From Candidatus Gastranaerophilales bacterium (GTDB taxonomy: Bacteria > Cyanobacteriota > Vampirovibrionia > Gastranaerophilales > Gastranaerophilaceae), in contig CALVAR010000002.1 of the NCBI GenBank assembly GCA_944325575.1, positions 1 through 64,000 on the forward strand: DNA of 64,000 nt, given 5' to 3'. The position numbers and the translations under genes were made by a program. Positions 27,151-63,583 of this stretch are shown in pieces; position 1 is the first letter of the stretch, and each line of letters starts with the position of its first letter. Under the pieces are notes generated by a model, which saw nothing but the letters and a program-made list of their open reading frames with translations, searched no databases and was not told the DNA's origin.

Positions 27151-27534
27151 TTATACTTTTTCAGTTTCAGGTTTTTCTGTTTGTGCTGCTTTATCAGCAG
27201 ATTTTGCCCTGTAGTGATTAATACCTTTATTGACAAGAGCGCCCAAACCGAGATATGCCAGTACAGTTACAGCAATACCAACACCAAGACCAGCCTTTGC
27301 GGTACGTTTTGCAAATTTTGCTGCTTGTTCTTTGGGCATTGTTTCTTTTAATTTTGAGTATGCATCTGCTATTATTCTTTTCAGTTTAGATGTTTTTGTT
27401 AACTTGTACAGCTCTACACCTGTTAAACCAAGGCCGACAGCCGCGCCTGCAATTGTTCCTGCGTGTGTCTTTTTATACTCATTACCTTTTTTTGTTGTTA
27501 CTGTTTTACCGAATGAAACTGCTTGTATAGACAT
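27151..27534 (-). CDS. Small two-helix membrane protein with N-terminal VSFGK motif
   Basis: A 127-residue protein with unknown function. It opens with MSIQAVSFGK, one of six [IVP][SA]F[GKR] N-termini in this window. Two Gly/Ala-rich hydrophobic segments follow (about residues 23-43 and 78-100), giving a hairpin membrane topology, and the charged C-terminus is rich in Lys/Glu/Thr. AAGGAG lies 7 nt before the ATG at 27534, which decides the start. It is a single gene with its own terminator. The layout resembles the protein at 33528. Confidence 0.72.
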   Translation of the reverse strand: MSIQAVSFGKTVTTKKGNEYKKTHAGTIAGAAVGLGLTGVELYKLTKTSKLKRIIADAYSKLKETMPKEQAAKFAKRTAKAGLGVGIAVTVLAYLGLGALVNKGINHYRAKSADKAAQTEKPETEKV

Positions 27535-27627
27535 ATCTTTCTCCTTTTTATACATTTATTCTAAATTTGAACATGGATTTTTTTGCTATTTGAATTTTAA
27601 ATATTTACAAATCTTATCACCCCGCTG

Positions 27628-30572: not shown

Positions 30573-30872
30573 ATGACAATTCATGCAGTTAACAATGTGG
30601 CATTTAAGGGACTTATCAGGGTTAATAATGCGGACAGGCCGGTTTCAACATCACTGGAAACTGATAAAATTCTTGATATTGCAACAAGAGAGTATAACAA
30701 AAATATTACTTATATTACGTATGATTTTCCGCAGGTTGTTAAACACAATGGCTATCAGTGGGAAGAGCCGCTTGTCATGCCGGTAAAACATGACATGGAT
30801 ACAATTTTGAAAGCATACAGTGCTGCAAAAAATTCTAATTTATGTGTAGATTTAAGAGAATATAATGATTAG
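30573..30872 (+). CDS. Small protein with N-terminal VAFKG motif
   Basis: A 99-residue soluble protein of unknown function. It opens with MTIHAVNNVAFKG, so the Phe of the shared [SA]F[GK] motif is at residue 11. The rest is alternating strand and helix (a beta-rich middle ending EEPLVMPVKHDMD, then a C-terminal helix). AGGAGAG is 7 nt before the ATG. A terminator follows at 30,894. It is a single-gene unit divergent from purH. Confidence 0.72.
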   Translation: MTIHAVNNVAFKGLIRVNNADRPVSTSLETDKILDIATREYNKNITYITYDFPQVVKHNGYQWEEPLVMPVKHDMDTILKAYSAAKNSNLCVDLREYND

Positions 30873-31908: not shown

Positions 31909-33375
31909 CTAAGACGCAGATTTTTTCTTTCTTGCTGGCGGAACAGATTCCAGCCTTTCTTTTATCAAGAGCAGATAATCATTCAATCCGGATTCATTAA
32001 TTTCCTGCTGTGAGTGATAATGTGTCGCTGTATCTTTACGCTTGCTTCTGCCGAGGCTTGTTGCCCAGAATTTCAACATTTTATCATCTCTTACAAAAAG
32101 ACTTTTTTTAATTTTATCATTTTGTCCGAGAACAATTATCTTTGTGCAGGTTTTTCCTTCCATTACGGGAAAACTGATAAGAATGGATTCGTTTGCCGGT
32201 GTAATATCTCTTAGTATCAGAGTAGGGCTTGCCATAACCGTGTCGATTTTGTATTTTTGTTTAAAAGCTTTTTTTCTGTCGGCTTCTTTAATATTTTTTA
32301 TTCTTATTTTACAAGTTTCGCAAAGTTTTTTTACTGCATTGATTAAGTTTATGCTATTTGTATCCAGTGTCCCTATATCTTCTGTTGTTGAATGTTTTTT
32401 AATATTTTCATGAATTTTTATGCGTTCTTCTATGTATTTTTTATATTTTATCAGTTCATCTCTCAGCGTTTCAAGCCGCATTCCTAATAATACTGAATCC
32501 AGTTCTCTTTGTGTATAGTATGTTTTCTTGTCTCCTACTTTTAAAACGCGGCTAAAATTGACTTCTTTTAATACTTCACCGTTAGGTCTTATAAATAAAT
32601 ACTGCGGTGTATTGTTTTCCTCTTTTATTTTAATGAAAAGATATTCTTCTCCATCACGTCCAACAATCCTATTAACTGTATAATCAGTTTCAGCATATCC
32701 TATTTTTTCAAACTCGATTTGTTTTGAACCATGAGTACCGGTTTTGATAGATTTATAACCATTTTTAATCTTAGAGCGTGTGGGTGGATTTTTTATAGAT
32801 GATATTTCTGATTGTATTGCAGCAAAAAGAATTTTGATATCATTTACTATTTTTTCATTTGAATTTTTAAGTACAGCGCGAGGCATAAATTTTTCTAAGA
32901 TTTGTGCAATATCTTTTTTTGCAAAAAATTTTCGTATTTGTAAGAAAACAAAATCGAATTTATCAAAAATTTCTGTCAGAAAATTTTCTAACTCGGCTGT
33001 TGTTGATGAAAATCCATTTGCTTGTACCAGTCTGTTGTACTTGATTTGTACATTTTTTATATTATTTTTGTTGTCGGATTCTTCAATAATTAATGTTGTT
33101 CTGTCCGGAGCTTCAAACCTGATTTGTTTTTCTCCTCTTTTAAAAATTACGCCGTCTTTTGTGATGCAATCCAGATGTGTAAGTTCTTTTAAAGTTTCAA
33201 CAGCTTTTTTTGCTCCGGAGACATGTCGGCATTCATTTAACTGTTTTAAATCTGGATTTATACAGCCTAAAGCATAAAGGATATCACGTGACTTTGCCGA
33301 GACAGACGAGGCCAGATTTTCGGTAGTTATAATTGAACCAAAGCTTATATTTGATTTAGTGTTAATATTCAGCAT
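31909..33375 (-). CDS. Uncharacterised 488-residue protein with N-terminal ISFGS motif
   Basis: A soluble protein with no family I recognise. It opens with MLNINTKSNISFGS, the shared motif with Phe at residue 12. The remainder alternates helical segments and charged loops, with a Lys/Arg-rich C-terminus (PPARKKKSAS). The frame extends 43 codons upstream through a Lys/Leu-rich AT-rich stretch, but that part reads like untranslated sequence; the ATG at 33375 is chosen because it places the motif as in the other proteins, although no clear ribosome-binding site is present. It is flanked by the tRNA-Arg repeat region. AT content is a little higher than in nearby housekeeping genes. Confidence 0.68.
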   Translation of the reverse strand: MLNINTKSNISFGSIITTENLASSVSAKSRDILYALGCINPDLKQLNECRHVSGAKKAVETLKELTHLDCITKDGVIFKRGEKQIRFEAPDRTTLIIEESDNKNNIKNVQIKYNRLVQANGFSSTTAELENFLTEIFDKFDFVFLQIRKFFAKKDIAQILEKFMPRAVLKNSNEKIVNDIKILFAAIQSEISSIKNPPTRSKIKNGYKSIKTGTHGSKQIEFEKIGYAETDYTVNRIVGRDGEEYLFIKIKEENNTPQYLFIRPNGEVLKEVNFSRVLKVGDKKTYYTQRELDSVLLGMRLETLRDELIKYKKYIEERIKIHENIKKHSTTEDIGTLDTNSINLINAVKKLCETCKIRIKNIKEADRKKAFKQKYKIDTVMASPTLILRDITPANESILISFPVMEGKTCTKIIVLGQNDKIKKSLFVRDDKMLKFWATSLGRSKRKDTATHYHSQQEINESGLNDYLLLIKERLESVPPARKKKSAS

Positions 33376-33527
33376 ACAGGATATAAAAAACGTAAAAAAA
33401 TTTTTTGCTATTGATTTTTTATATAATAATTTAAGAATTATTTTAATATATCGTAATATTAATGTTGTAAGACGCAACTTTTTATATTTACAATATTTAT
33501 GCAATTGTATTCAAAAAGGCAGAAAAA

Positions 33528-42211: not shown

Positions 42212-45200
42212 ATGATTGAAAAAATAGGATTTAATTTTAACTTTAGAAATACATTAAAAAAACAAGAAAATGCACAACAAAAAACTGAATCAAAAGCGGT
42301 CTCACCTGTTTCTCAAAATACTATGACGGCGCCTTCAACTCAGCTGCTACACAGCTATTTTGTAAGCTTTGGAAAAAATAAAGATTATGATACAGACTCC
42401 AATGATATTGAAGAAAAAGTTATAAAGAAATCTTCAAAATCTGCCGGCAAGGACAAAATGTCCGAGATAGAAAACAATCTTTCATATTACGGAGAAAAAC
42501 TTTTTAATGATTCTAAAGCACTGGCCAAAAAGTATAAACATAACGAGATAACACAGCTTCATGTATTGAGAGCCGGTCTGGCGAATATAAAAAGATATAT
42601 GGATAAACTGGATTCCGGTGAGGCTTCTTATGATGATGAATCTTCTTTCAGCACACATATAACTCTTGAAAATGATCTTGGGAAGACCGTGTTTAAAGAT
42701 AAAACCAAAAGAGATATAATAAGACCCGTAATAGAAAATGAAATTACAGAGATTGATAAAAAGCTAGCAGAGCTGCCTGCGGCTAAATCTTCATTAAATT
42801 CAAAAATTGTATTTTCAAAAGATTTTCTAAACGACATATACAGTTTTTATACACAGGATAATGTTGAGGATTTGGGCGGAGACGGACTTGTACATGACCA
42901 GACTATATTTGAAGCCGCATATTATCCGAACAATGACCAGATAAAAAAAGAAATCATTACCCCTTTCAGAACTGTTATGAAAGATGAAATTCAAATGGAT
43001 AAAAGACCTTTGTCACAGAGAATACATCTTTCTTTCTATGACGACAAGGCTGTGAATATTTGGAAAAATCTTGCGGTAGGTACAAATATGGCTATACTGC
43101 ATGACAAAGATTCTTCAGTTTTTTATCTTATAAATTCATTCTTATCGGTTTTTGAAAACAGTAAAAACGGTTTCGGTAATCTTACAAAAGATAATACAGT
43201 TATTGTCAATTTTAATGATAACGGTGAGATTGATAATAATTATATGAACAAAAAAATCCATCAATTCGGAAAAGATAAAAATAAAAATTACATCATGATA
43301 ATGTCAATCATGGACAGAGAAATGGATTCTCTTGTTATTGATGAAACAAACGTTGAAATGTTTAAAAAAGCTCCTAAAAATGTAAAATTTGTCATGGTTG
43401 CGGACAAAGATAAATATTACAAGGAGAGTACATCGGTTGTGGCACAGAAATTTTTCAGAGATTTCGGCGAGATATCAATGCCTTTGATGAATATGACTCA
43501 GGCAAAAAAGATGTTTAAGGAGCAGCCCGCTCTTACTGCAAGAATAAAAAAACCGTTTTCACAGCCTGCCATAGAAAAATGTATAGAAGCGGCAAACCAG
43601 CTTGAAGGTAATTTCCCAGAGAAAGCACAAAAGGTAATGGAGCTTGTCGCCGCATATTATGTTGACAAGGACAAAATAAGTACATCAGATGTCCAAAACT
43701 ACGTAAAAGAAGCAAAAGAAATTTTTAAACCGGTAGAAAATGACAGTTCTATAAAAGTTGTATTTGATACCGGCATTAAATTAAAAGACATGGTTGGTGC
43801 TCCTTCCACAAAAAAAGAAGCTCAGTCTATTGTTGACAGGATAAAAGATAAATCAATAGGAACAAAGGGCTTTATTATCTATTCACAAGACGGCTCGGTA
43901 GGTGCCGGCAGAAAATATACTGCGCAGGCTATAGCCGGAGAAGCAAAGATTCCTTATATAGAAATAAACGCAGTAGACTTCGGTACAAAAGATGTTGACC
44001 TGTTTGGTTTTGGTATGCTGAGCCCTGAAGCTTCCATGAAAAAGTTGTTCGGTATGGTGAAAGCTCAGGCGGAAACTAACCCTTCTAAGTCAGCATTATT
44101 GTTTGTCGAGAACTTTGACTATTTTTCATACGGAGAATATGTGTCCGAATACCATGAAAAAGCGATGTCACAACTTATAAGAGAAATGAATAAAGCTCAG
44201 GAACAGGGGCTTAATATAGTTGTTATGGGCTCTATGGGTGATCCTGCCCATATCGGTGCAGCAACTTCAAAGTCGTTTAAATTTATTGACCAGATTGAGG
44301 TTGAGTCTCCCGAAAGAAACAGTGAAGCAAGAAACGAAATCATCGGTTATTACATAAAGAAAAAGAATATAAAACTCTCCGGTAATGAACAGGAACAAAA
44401 GGAAATTAAAGATCATATCAACTTGCTTACGGAGCGTTTGTCATATATTGAAATTTTGACACTTATGGACAAAGCAAAAAATGTTGCAAAGGAAAGAAAA
44501 CATAAAACAATAGATAAATCTGACTTTACTGAGGCTTATTTGCAGCTGACAACGGGCCGTCCTTCAAGTGCACAGGATCCGCAATACAGAAAAGAACTTG
44601 TTACTTCTCATGAATGCGGACACGCTACTAACGGTATTATTATGGAGGAACTCGCCAGAAAAGAGGGCAGGCTTGATCATATCGGCGATTCTATAAACTT
44701 TATAACACTGGACCCCAGAGGCTCATTTGGCGGTGCTGTATACTTTAGCGATGAAGTTAATCCGGAATATTCTTTTGAAAAAATCTTCAGCGGGCTTGTT
44801 ACTGACTTTGGCGGTAATTCTTGCGAAAAACATTTCTACGGCCAAGACGGAAGCTGGGGAATAACGGCTGATATGAGAGCTGCAACGCATATGGCTTCTA
44901 TGGCGACTATGCTGATGGGACAGGGCAAGCATTTTGGCAAAAAATCCCTAAACGGTATGTGGGTGTTGTCTGAAAAAGACAAAGATAACATGAATAAAGA
45001 TATAGACACAATGCTCACAAATGCACAGCTTGTATCTGACGCAATTACAGAGGTTTATGAAGATTTTAATAAGGAATTTGTTAAAAAGTATTCTTCAAAA
45101 GTAGGAACGGGCGAATGCATTATTCAAAGAGAAGAATTTGTAAAAATGCTCAATGACTGGAGATCAAAACAATCTGTGGAAAAGCAAAAAGAATTTGAGC

Positions 45201-45274
45201 TTTTGGACAAAACTATTCTCGACGTTATAGCGGCAACAAAACGCGGTGTAAAATGTCATAAATCAGGAGAATAG
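42212..45274 (+). CDS. Clp-N / degenerate AAA / FtsH-type M41 peptidase chimera
   Basis: A 1020-residue protein with an unusual architecture. Residues 50-56 carry YFVSFGK, the shared motif. Residues about 85-135 look like a Clp N-domain repeat (ALAKKYKHNEITQLHVLRAGL). Residues about 260-505 resemble a ClpA/B D1 module but lack a Walker A; the end of this block has KKPFSQPAIEKC and PEKAQKVMELVAAYY. Residues about 545-745 resemble the FtsH AAA domain, but Walker A reads DGSVGAGRKYT instead of GPPGTGKT and Walker B reads LLFVENFD. The M41 peptidase keeps HECGH (800-804) and the ADMRAAT zinc-ligand helix. No membrane helix is seen. Single gene. Confidence 0.8.
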   Translation: MIEKIGFNFNFRNTLKKQENAQQKTESKAVSPVSQNTMTAPSTQLLHSYFVSFGKNKDYDTDSNDIEEKVIKKSSKSAGKDKMSEIENNLSYYGEKLFNDSKALAKKYKHNEITQLHVLRAGLANIKRYMDKLDSGEASYDDESSFSTHITLENDLGKTVFKDKTKRDIIRPVIENEITEIDKKLAELPAAKSSLNSKIVFSKDFLNDIYSFYTQDNVEDLGGDGLVHDQTIFEAAYYPNNDQIKKEIITPFRTVMKDEIQMDKRPLSQRIHLSFYDDKAVNIWKNLAVGTNMAILHDKDSSVFYLINSFLSVFENSKNGFGNLTKDNTVIVNFNDNGEIDNNYMNKKIHQFGKDKNKNYIMIMSIMDREMDSLVIDETNVEMFKKAPKNVKFVMVADKDKYYKESTSVVAQKFFRDFGEISMPLMNMTQAKKMFKEQPALTARIKKPFSQPAIEKCIEAANQLEGNFPEKAQKVMELVAAYYVDKDKISTSDVQNYVKEAKEIFKPVENDSSIKVVFDTGIKLKDMVGAPSTKKEAQSIVDRIKDKSIGTKGFIIYSQDGSVGAGRKYTAQAIAGEAKIPYIEINAVDFGTKDVDLFGFGMLSPEASMKKLFGMVKAQAETNPSKSALLFVENFDYFSYGEYVSEYHEKAMSQLIREMNKAQEQGLNIVVMGSMGDPAHIGAATSKSFKFIDQIEVESPERNSEARNEIIGYYIKKKNIKLSGNEQEQKEIKDHINLLTERLSYIEILTLMDKAKNVAKERKHKTIDKSDFTEAYLQLTTGRPSSAQDPQYRKELVTSHECGHATNGIIMEELARKEGRLDHIGDSINFITLDPRGSFGGAVYFSDEVNPEYSFEKIFSGLVTDFGGNSCEKHFYGQDGSWGITADMRAATHMASMATMLMGQGKHFGKKSLNGMWVLSEKDKDNMNKDIDTMLTNAQLVSDAITEVYEDFNKEFVKKYSSKVGTGECIIQREEFVKMLNDWRSKQSVEKQKEFELLDKTILDVIAATKRGVKCHKSGE

Positions 45275-45285
45275 CCTGACTAGCT

Positions 45286-45770
45286 TTATTCAATCTGCCC
45301 GATATTTTCAATTTTTATGCCGTCAATAAGTTCGTTGTTTGATATAACAACAATATTTGGAATATGTTTTTTCAAAAGACGGTATAAAGGCAGCCTGATT
45401 TCCGGCGAGCAGAGAATCACCGGCATATTATATGTCATTTTATGGGCAGTCATCAGTGCAATTGCCGTTTTTTCAACAAATTCATTCATAAAATCGGAAT
45501 TAAGATTTAAGTATGTATTTTGTTCCGTTTTTACTGTACTTTTTGAAAGTATTTTTTCAAAATTGTCAGATATTGTGATTGTATAAAGAACTTTGTCTAT
45601 AGTGCAGTAGTTAAGACATATATTTCTGGCAAATGCTGTACGCAGCTGTTCTGAAAGAAAGTTCAATACATTGTTCTTTCATATTTTGTGCAAATTCTTT
45701 ATAGTTAAAATCTTTATCCATTGTCATATCTGTATATTTTTTATAATTAAAAATTATAGCATTTCAAATA
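45286..45770 (-). pseudogene. Remnant of the FlhA C-terminal domain (flagellar export)
   Basis: Minus-strand residues translated from 45286-45666 match the end of FlhA: FLSEQLRTAFARNI and, near the C-terminus, PVILCSPEIRLPLYRLLKKH and IVVISNNELID, which fit the FlhA blocks around VRQALARQI, lc-p-lR and VLSy-Ei. Only about 126 residues are kept out of about 690. The frame opens at a TTG; further upstream FAQNMKEQC lies in another frame, so a frameshift at about 45,665 is likely. No membrane domain is present. It is best read as a decaying flagellar gene. A stand-alone small protein is possible but less likely. Confidence 0.6.
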
Positions 45771-60223: not shown

Positions 60224-60607
60224 TTATTTTGAATAACGTGAAATAAGTTCCTGCGCTGTTGTTTTATCTTTTACGTCGCCTCCGACCAAGCTTCTGAATT
60301 TTCTGCCGAGTTCACCCAGTTCTAAAATTCCGTTAAAGGAAGCTTCTTGCGGAGATTGTGCGCCGTTTGAAAAATTTTGGATAGTGTGTTTACCCATTGT
60401 GAAGTTTGAAAATATTCTACCGTCCGGAGTTTTTCCGTGAATGATAAGGATATCACCTTCATTGGCATGTAATATGTTGTTCAATGCGGTATCGAGCTTC
60501 CTTAACTGTTTATTTTTTGCCGCATAATCGACAACTTCTTTTAATGCTTTTGCTTCAAATTTGGCTCTAAATGATGGAGAAGAATAATTTTTGTTTGATA
60601 TTTCCAT
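60224..60607 (-). CDS. Small protein with N-terminal PSFRAKF motif
   Basis: A 127-residue soluble protein of unknown function. It opens with MEISNKNYSSPSFRAKF, so the shared Phe is at residue 13. The fold pattern (helix, then ILIIHGKTPDGR, then a GKH and a C-terminal helical part) is parallel to that of the 63263 protein, which has LYLFSGKHLDKF. The two may be distant homologues. GGAGG lies 6 nt before the ATG at 60607, decisive over an upstream TTG. Single gene with terminator. Confidence 0.72.
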   Translation of the reverse strand: MEISNKNYSSPSFRAKFEAKALKEVVDYAAKNKQLRKLDTALNNILHANEGDILIIHGKTPDGRIFSNFTMGKHTIQNFSNGAQSPQEASFNGILELGELGRKFRSLVGGDVKDKTTAQELISRYSK

Positions 60608-60762
60608 ATATACCTCCAATTTCCCTGTTTATTTTTTTTCAATTATCTGGATAAATTTATTTTTTACTGAAATAAAACCCGTAAAAATATTTTTTGCTAT
60701 ATGTATAAAAATTAAGAAAATATATTTATATGTTAAAATTTTACTACCGGAATAAATGCTTT

Positions 60763-63262: not shown

Positions 63263-63583
63263 ATGTATACAAATAACATTAATAACAGACAAGCCATACC
63301 TTCTTTCGGAAAATTTATAAAAATTAAAGGGCATACAAAAGCAATTGCTGATTTTCGAGAAGAATTAAAAAGTAATAATGATGTTTTTATATCAATTGCA
63401 AAACAAAAAATTAATGATAAAAGTGTTTTGTATCTTTTTAGCGGCAAACATCTGGATAAGTTTTTGGATTTGATGAGAGAGGTGTATTTTAGAGATTTGA
63501 GAACAAACCCGGAAAAATATTTAAAATCAAAGCCCAAAGAGCTTACTCTTAATCAGGCAAAAAAATTGAATAAGATTTTGTAA
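63263..63583 (+). CDS. Small protein with N-terminal IPSFGK motif
   Basis: A 106-residue soluble protein of unknown function. It opens with MYTNNINNRQAIPSFGK, with the shared Phe at residue 15. The remainder is helix-strand-helix, with DVFISIAKQ, LYLFSGKHLDKF and a Lys/Leu-rich C-terminal helix. It may be a distant homologue of the 60224 protein (same GKH block). CGGAG precedes the ATG by about 12 nt. It is divergent from marR, so the operators might also affect it. Confidence 0.7.
   Translation: MYTNNINNRQAIPSFGKFIKIKGHTKAIADFREELKSNNDVFISIAKQKINDKSVLYLFSGKHLDKFLDLMREVYFRDLRTNPEKYLKSKPKELTLNQAKKLNKIL

Follow-up and report, generated by a model that had tools for sequence, protein, structure and literature searches.

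The locus and the architecture of its product

The window, a stretch of 64,000 nucleotides from a Candidatus Gastranaerophilales MAG (2.02 Mb assembly, 99% complete), carries an open reading frame at 42212-45274 on the forward strand, encoding a protein of 1020 residues. A sequence-only reading of the window had proposed that a Clp-N-like repeat, a ClpA/B D1-like module, an FtsH-like AAA domain and an M41 peptidase are joined in this one polypeptide. The coordinates and the quoted motifs (DGSVGAGRKYT, LLFVENFD, HECGH, and ADMRAAT at residues 886-892) proved exact on checking, and Pfam, sequence profiles and AlphaFold models agree with the chimeric layout (Table 1).

Table 1. Features of the protein encoded in the window.
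Feature	Residues	Coordinates	Strand	Remarks
Hsp100 N/D1-like + FtsH-like pseudo-AAA + M41 peptidase	1-1020	42212..45274	+
Disordered N-terminal tail	1-79	42212..42448	+	AlphaFold pLDDT <50 at 1-65 and 67-79
Short tag SYFVSFGK	48-55	42353..42376	+	near N-terminus of most relatives; Phe53 nearly invariant
Clp-N-like helical domain	81-270	42452..43021	+	profile match, hhalign, fold match
Hsp100 D1-like AAA module without P-loop or Walker B	271-510	43022..43741	+
FtsH-type pseudo-AAA domain and lid	515-785	43754..44566	+	includes the most conserved part of the protein
Broken Walker A, DGSVGAGRKYT	560-570	43889..43921	+	Lys replaced by Arg567 in 71/71
Broken Walker B, LLFVENFD	629-636	44096..44119	+	catalytic Glu replaced by Asn (66), Lys (3) or His (2) in 71
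Arg-finger positions, KSFKF	687-691	44270..44284	+	RPGRF in FtsH
M41 zinc peptidase domain	786-1015	44567..45256	+
HECGH	800-804	44609..44623	+	His, Glu, His in 71/71
Glu872	872	44825..44827	+	aligned with E. coli FtsH Glu479 region; 71/71
Asp887	887	44870..44872	+	third zinc-ligand position in FtsH crystal structures; 71/71

Pfam assigns an AAA domain to residues 561-686 (E 4.8e-8) and Peptidase_M41 to residues 793-957 (E 1.1e-7). The NCBIfam model FtsH_fam (TIGR01241) covers residues 520-958 with 71.9 bits against a cut-off of 600, which places the protein below the curated family score; FtsH chains are its nearest solved structures by sequence. The full-length AlphaFold model (a single chain, predicted with 61 orthologues; mean pLDDT 84.6, pTM 0.65) retrieves apo-FtsH (3kds) from the PDB with Foldseek at E 2.6e-19 and a TM-score of 0.83 by target length over 476 columns, and chains of the FtsHi complex are also among the matches.

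A single-sequence Pfam search of the window protein misses both Clp-N and D1, and Pfam Clp_N is matched by 6 of 64 members (best E 0.0017), the window member not being one of them. The alignment profile of residues 80-512, compared with the PDB, finds the N-domains of ClpC (E 2.7e-7) and the lid of its D1 (E 2e-5), and hhalign relates the Clp-N-like domain to the ClpC of relatives with a probability of 86%. Modelled alone from 64 sequences, the N-terminal half reaches a pLDDT of 92 and a pTM of 0.84, and the 50 best PDB folds found with it all belong to ClpC, ClpA, ClpB or Hsp104. Matches spanning about 255-265 columns superpose at about 5 to 8 Å, so the large rmsd of full-length matches is probably due to a different placement of N-domain and D1. 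The prediction and superposition proposed with the sequence-only reading thus place the C-terminal part on FtsH and the N-terminal half on Hsp100 proteins, and the suspected similarity to Clp-N and to a D1 lacking Walker A is upheld by profile and fold alike. Since AlphaFold fold matches and sequence profiles agree, we conclude that the protein is an Hsp100 N/D1 half fused to an FtsH AAA/M41 half.

The resemblance to ClpC, ClpA and ClpB is collinear over about 450 columns in fold and profile, and includes, by profile, the Clp-N domain typical of Hsp100 proteins. The two active AAA modules (D1 and D2) of that family are not found: no P-loop motif is present in the D1-like module among the 71 aligned orthologues, and D2 is replaced by an FtsH-type AAA-M41 unit, so that a separate ClpP would be unnecessary. 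The N-terminal transmembrane anchor of FtsH is missing as well, as had been noted from the sequence; the best 19-residue Kyte-Doolittle mean of the window protein is 0.85, compared with 2.92 for the FtsH of the same genome.

Degenerate motor sites and a conserved peptidase site

Residue counts were taken from 71 aligned orthologues, sampled. Apart from the replaced Walker A Lys and the Walker B Glu, which is lost from every sequence (Table 1), the column of the Walker A Thr holds Lys or Arg in 63 (Thr in 2) and that of the Walker B Asp holds Glu in 56 (Asp in 4). The sensor-1 Asn is retained in 31, and the two Arg-finger columns contain Lys in 61 and 56 sequences and Arg in 3 and 11, respectively. 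The signature of a functional FtsH AAA domain (Walker A GKT, Walker B DE, Arg fingers) is hence absent. The dead P-loop is itself constrained, with GxGR invariant (71/71) and an adjoining second basic residue in most orthologues. Aligning Walker A and B across the homologues, a check suggested beforehand, uncovers no intact motif in any shifted register; the only GxxxxGK[ST] among the 71 members occurs by chance within the M41 part of one of them (L118), and we therefore reject a hidden Walker motif.

In the peptidase domain, His800, Glu801, His804, Glu872 and Asp887 are invariant in all orthologues. An M41 domain with HEXXH and an acidic ligand is accordingly common to the clade, and the HEXXH residues and the Asp of the ADMRAAT ligand helix, noted in a single protein, are kept in its relatives. 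From these counts we conclude, at the level of sequence, that both motor sites are degenerate across the clade and that the peptidase site is untouched.

Distribution and selection

Orthologues were identified in 22 of 23 same-genus genomes and, across the order Gastranaerophilales, in about 117 of the 383 genomes sampled; this count leaves out genomes that match through paralogues only and one genome with just a short N-terminal match. The only same-genus genome without the protein (G021) is 96% complete. Outside the order, no match was obtained at E 1e-25 among 289 sampled genomes from the class and 292 from the phylum, and no relative was found in the viral contigs searched. The loci of relatives lie mostly in Candidatus Gastranaerophilales MAGs and in other gut MAGs, one of them labelled Clostridia. 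No conserved operon surrounds the gene, and its neighbours vary among genera; together with the lack of viral relatives this led us to reject a phage or mobile origin. An assembly artefact or a one-off decay is ruled out by the 71 sampled orthologues and by dN/dS values well below 1.

Within the genus, identity to the window protein amounts to 37% in the tail, 60% in Clp-N, 72% in the D1-like module, 87.6% in the pseudo-AAA domain, 78% in the lid and 78.5% in M41; outside the genus the corresponding values are 18, 20, 31, 50, 41 and 44%. Pairwise dN/dS (NG86) of the pseudo-AAA domain is mostly 0.02-0.05, the highest value (0.12) coming from a pair with very few changes; these ratios are approximate, with some dS values near saturation. 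Being the best conserved domain, with dN/dS of about 0.02-0.05, the dead AAA domain is under selection, judging from these comparisons more strictly than the protease, and is not decaying. The fully dead clade is monophyletic with support of 100/100. The combination of a dead ATPase with a retained protease, proposed for the window protein alone, is fixed across a clade whose proteins are most conserved in the dead AAA domain.

FtsH and soluble paralogues in the order

The source genome also encodes a normal membrane FtsH (C22, locus L002), about 26% identical to the window protein. Distinct from this membrane FtsH are soluble FtsH-like paralogues whose ATPase motifs are intact (L028-L031, L055, L057-L067, L100, L115); in the samples searched they were confined to the order. 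Like the window protein, L028-L031, L055 and L057-L067 combine a short N-terminal tag with FtsH AAA and M41, lack a membrane helix in those tested, and in some cases contain a D1-like part; unlike it, they are shorter, have intact Walker A, Walker B and Arg fingers, and show no detectable Clp-N domain. Such paralogues are present in about half of the same-genus genomes and absent from the source genome, and for this reason an obligate pairing with them can be rejected.

In another family of the order, three soluble FtsH-like proteins (L053, L054, L056) have intact Walker A and HEXXH with degraded Walker B and Arg fingers, possibly a second, partial loss of ATPase function as far as the motifs indicate. 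A first tree placed them with the dead clade (97/92, flagged for long branches); once that clade is omitted they group with L031 (96/94), and in a tree with fewer rows the join is unresolved. Stepwise decay through these proteins is therefore not upheld, and an independent loss is as likely.

Possible mode of action

Based on this dataset, we lean, with moderate confidence, towards a soluble, ATP-independent, self-compartmentalising zinc protease, an M41 counterpart of LonC. Protein degradation without ATP appears probable because both motors are broken and the cutting site is intact in all 71 orthologues; we infer the hexameric state, proteolytic activity, passive entry and the role of Clp-N. 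By homology, the M41 domains would form a hexameric disk, above which two further rings, one FtsH-type pseudo-AAA and one Hsp100 D1-like, could build a static two-tier vestibule, assembled without nucleotide hydrolysis. Neighbouring subunits might be linked into a nucleotide-free ring by Arg567, which is invariant, and by the Lys residues that occupy the old Arg-finger positions. As suggested by ClpC, the Clp-N domain may recruit unstructured substrates or an adaptor, and chains would then diffuse into the chamber and be cut at the HEXXH site. Isolated protease and ATPase domains of FtsH can each hexamerise (PMC9020784), and a ring could thus assemble even where ATP is no longer hydrolysed. 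A precedent is the Lon-like protease MtaLonC: its AAA module is degenerate, it forms hexamers devoid of ATPase activity, and it breaks down unfolded proteins with no need for ATP (PMC3391209). On the other hand, FtsH normally needs ATP to feed its chamber, and a static ring might therefore block entry, which speaks against a passive protease.

The main rivals to a passive protease are a subunit powered by membrane FtsH and a nucleotide-locked ring. A protease-competent, motor-dead subunit could join the ring of membrane FtsH or of another AAA+ protein, its neighbours supplying the power. A normal membrane FtsH exists in the source genome, FtsHi-complex chains are among the structural matches, and mixed rings of active and inactive subunits are known from plastid FtsH/FtsHi (PMC8197885). 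Such a heteromer nevertheless seems unlikely to us, given the missing membrane anchor, the low identity to the FtsH of the same genome, the additional Hsp100 N/D1 tier, which has no counterpart in FtsH, and the patchy occurrence of the intact soluble paralogues, which provides no obligate partner. The second rival, in which the pocket binds ATP or another anionic ligand without hydrolysis and binding stabilises or gates the ring, draws on the strong constraint on the dead P-loop and on the exchange of Walker B Glu for Asn, which is similar to laboratory hydrolysis traps. MtaLonC, too, binds six nucleotides despite its broken motifs (PMC3391209). Here, however, the Walker A Lys and the Mg-binding Thr are both replaced, which usually weakens nucleotide binding, and we consider this reading more doubtful still.

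Some FtsH relatives, for instance FtsHi, act without proteolysis (PMC8197885), and the protein might accordingly be a scaffold or chaperone whose zinc site is structural. With catalytic Glu801 and all zinc ligands invariant, unlike FtsHi with its lost HEXXH, this appears very improbable. Returning to the passive protease, a broader proposition is possible, although we hesitate to favour it: that the whole clade consists of fuel-free M41 compartmental proteases, made of Hsp100 N/D1 and FtsH halves with both motors dead, in which the ATP pocket with its invariant GxGR has acquired a new role, structural or ligand-binding, and is selected more strongly than the protease domain.

Relation to known systems

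Members of the FtsH family are seen as membrane-bound machines driven by ATP, and in the FtsH pseudoenzymes known to us the protease is the activity that was lost. With bacterial FtsH, m-AAA and i-AAA proteases the window protein shares the AAA-lid-M41 order, the fold, and HEXXH plus the Asp and Glu ligand positions; it differs in having neither a transmembrane anchor nor functional Walker A/B or Arg fingers, and in its additional Hsp100 N-domain and D1-like module. Plastid FtsHi resembles it as an FtsH-family protein that has lost one of two activities. In plant FtsHi, however, the protease is lost and the ATPase kept (PMC8197885), whereas all 71 orthologues show the reverse, in line with the contrast drawn in the sequence-only reading. 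LonC (MtaLonC) is a functional analogue, a compartmental protease combining a degenerate AAA module with an intact peptidase; its peptidase is of the unrelated Lon type, and it has one AAA-like tier and no Hsp100 part.

A literature search, with most subscription journals outside its coverage, returned no paper on the window protein or on an M41 protein with loss of the ATPase only. Each part is known already; the combination and the pattern of loss are apparently new, as far as we are aware. A clade with the opposite loss, in which the dead ATPase is kept more strictly than the protease, offers a natural test of roles of AAA rings beyond burning ATP. If our reading is true, the LonC idea of energy-free chamber proteases would also hold for an unrelated family of peptidases, found in gut bacteria that are largely uncultured.

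N-terminal motif and gene neighbourhood

A motif of the approximate form [VIPN][SNA]F[GKTSR][GAK], often following an MxIxxI-like start, is found at the N-terminus of otherwise unrelated proteins and of most soluble FtsH-like proteins of the order. Within the window it is also carried by the products of 27151-27555 (-), 30573-30872 (+), 31909-33504 (-), 60224-60619 (-) and 63263-63583 (+), none of which has a Pfam match. In its strict form, the pattern occurs at about 5-fold higher density within the first 20 residues than after residue 100, in a count that includes the FtsH-like relatives. The motif may be a sorting tag specific to the lineage. We rejected the idea that it directs export to an ATP-free compartment, as paralogues with intact ATPase bear the same tag.

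Directly downstream of the FtsH-like gene at 42212-45274, 45286-45666 (-) encodes only the C-terminal 126 residues of an FlhA-type protein (Pfam FHIPEP, E 6.9e-19, profile positions 542-655 of 657), by its sequence apparently what is left of a gene for flagellar or type III export.
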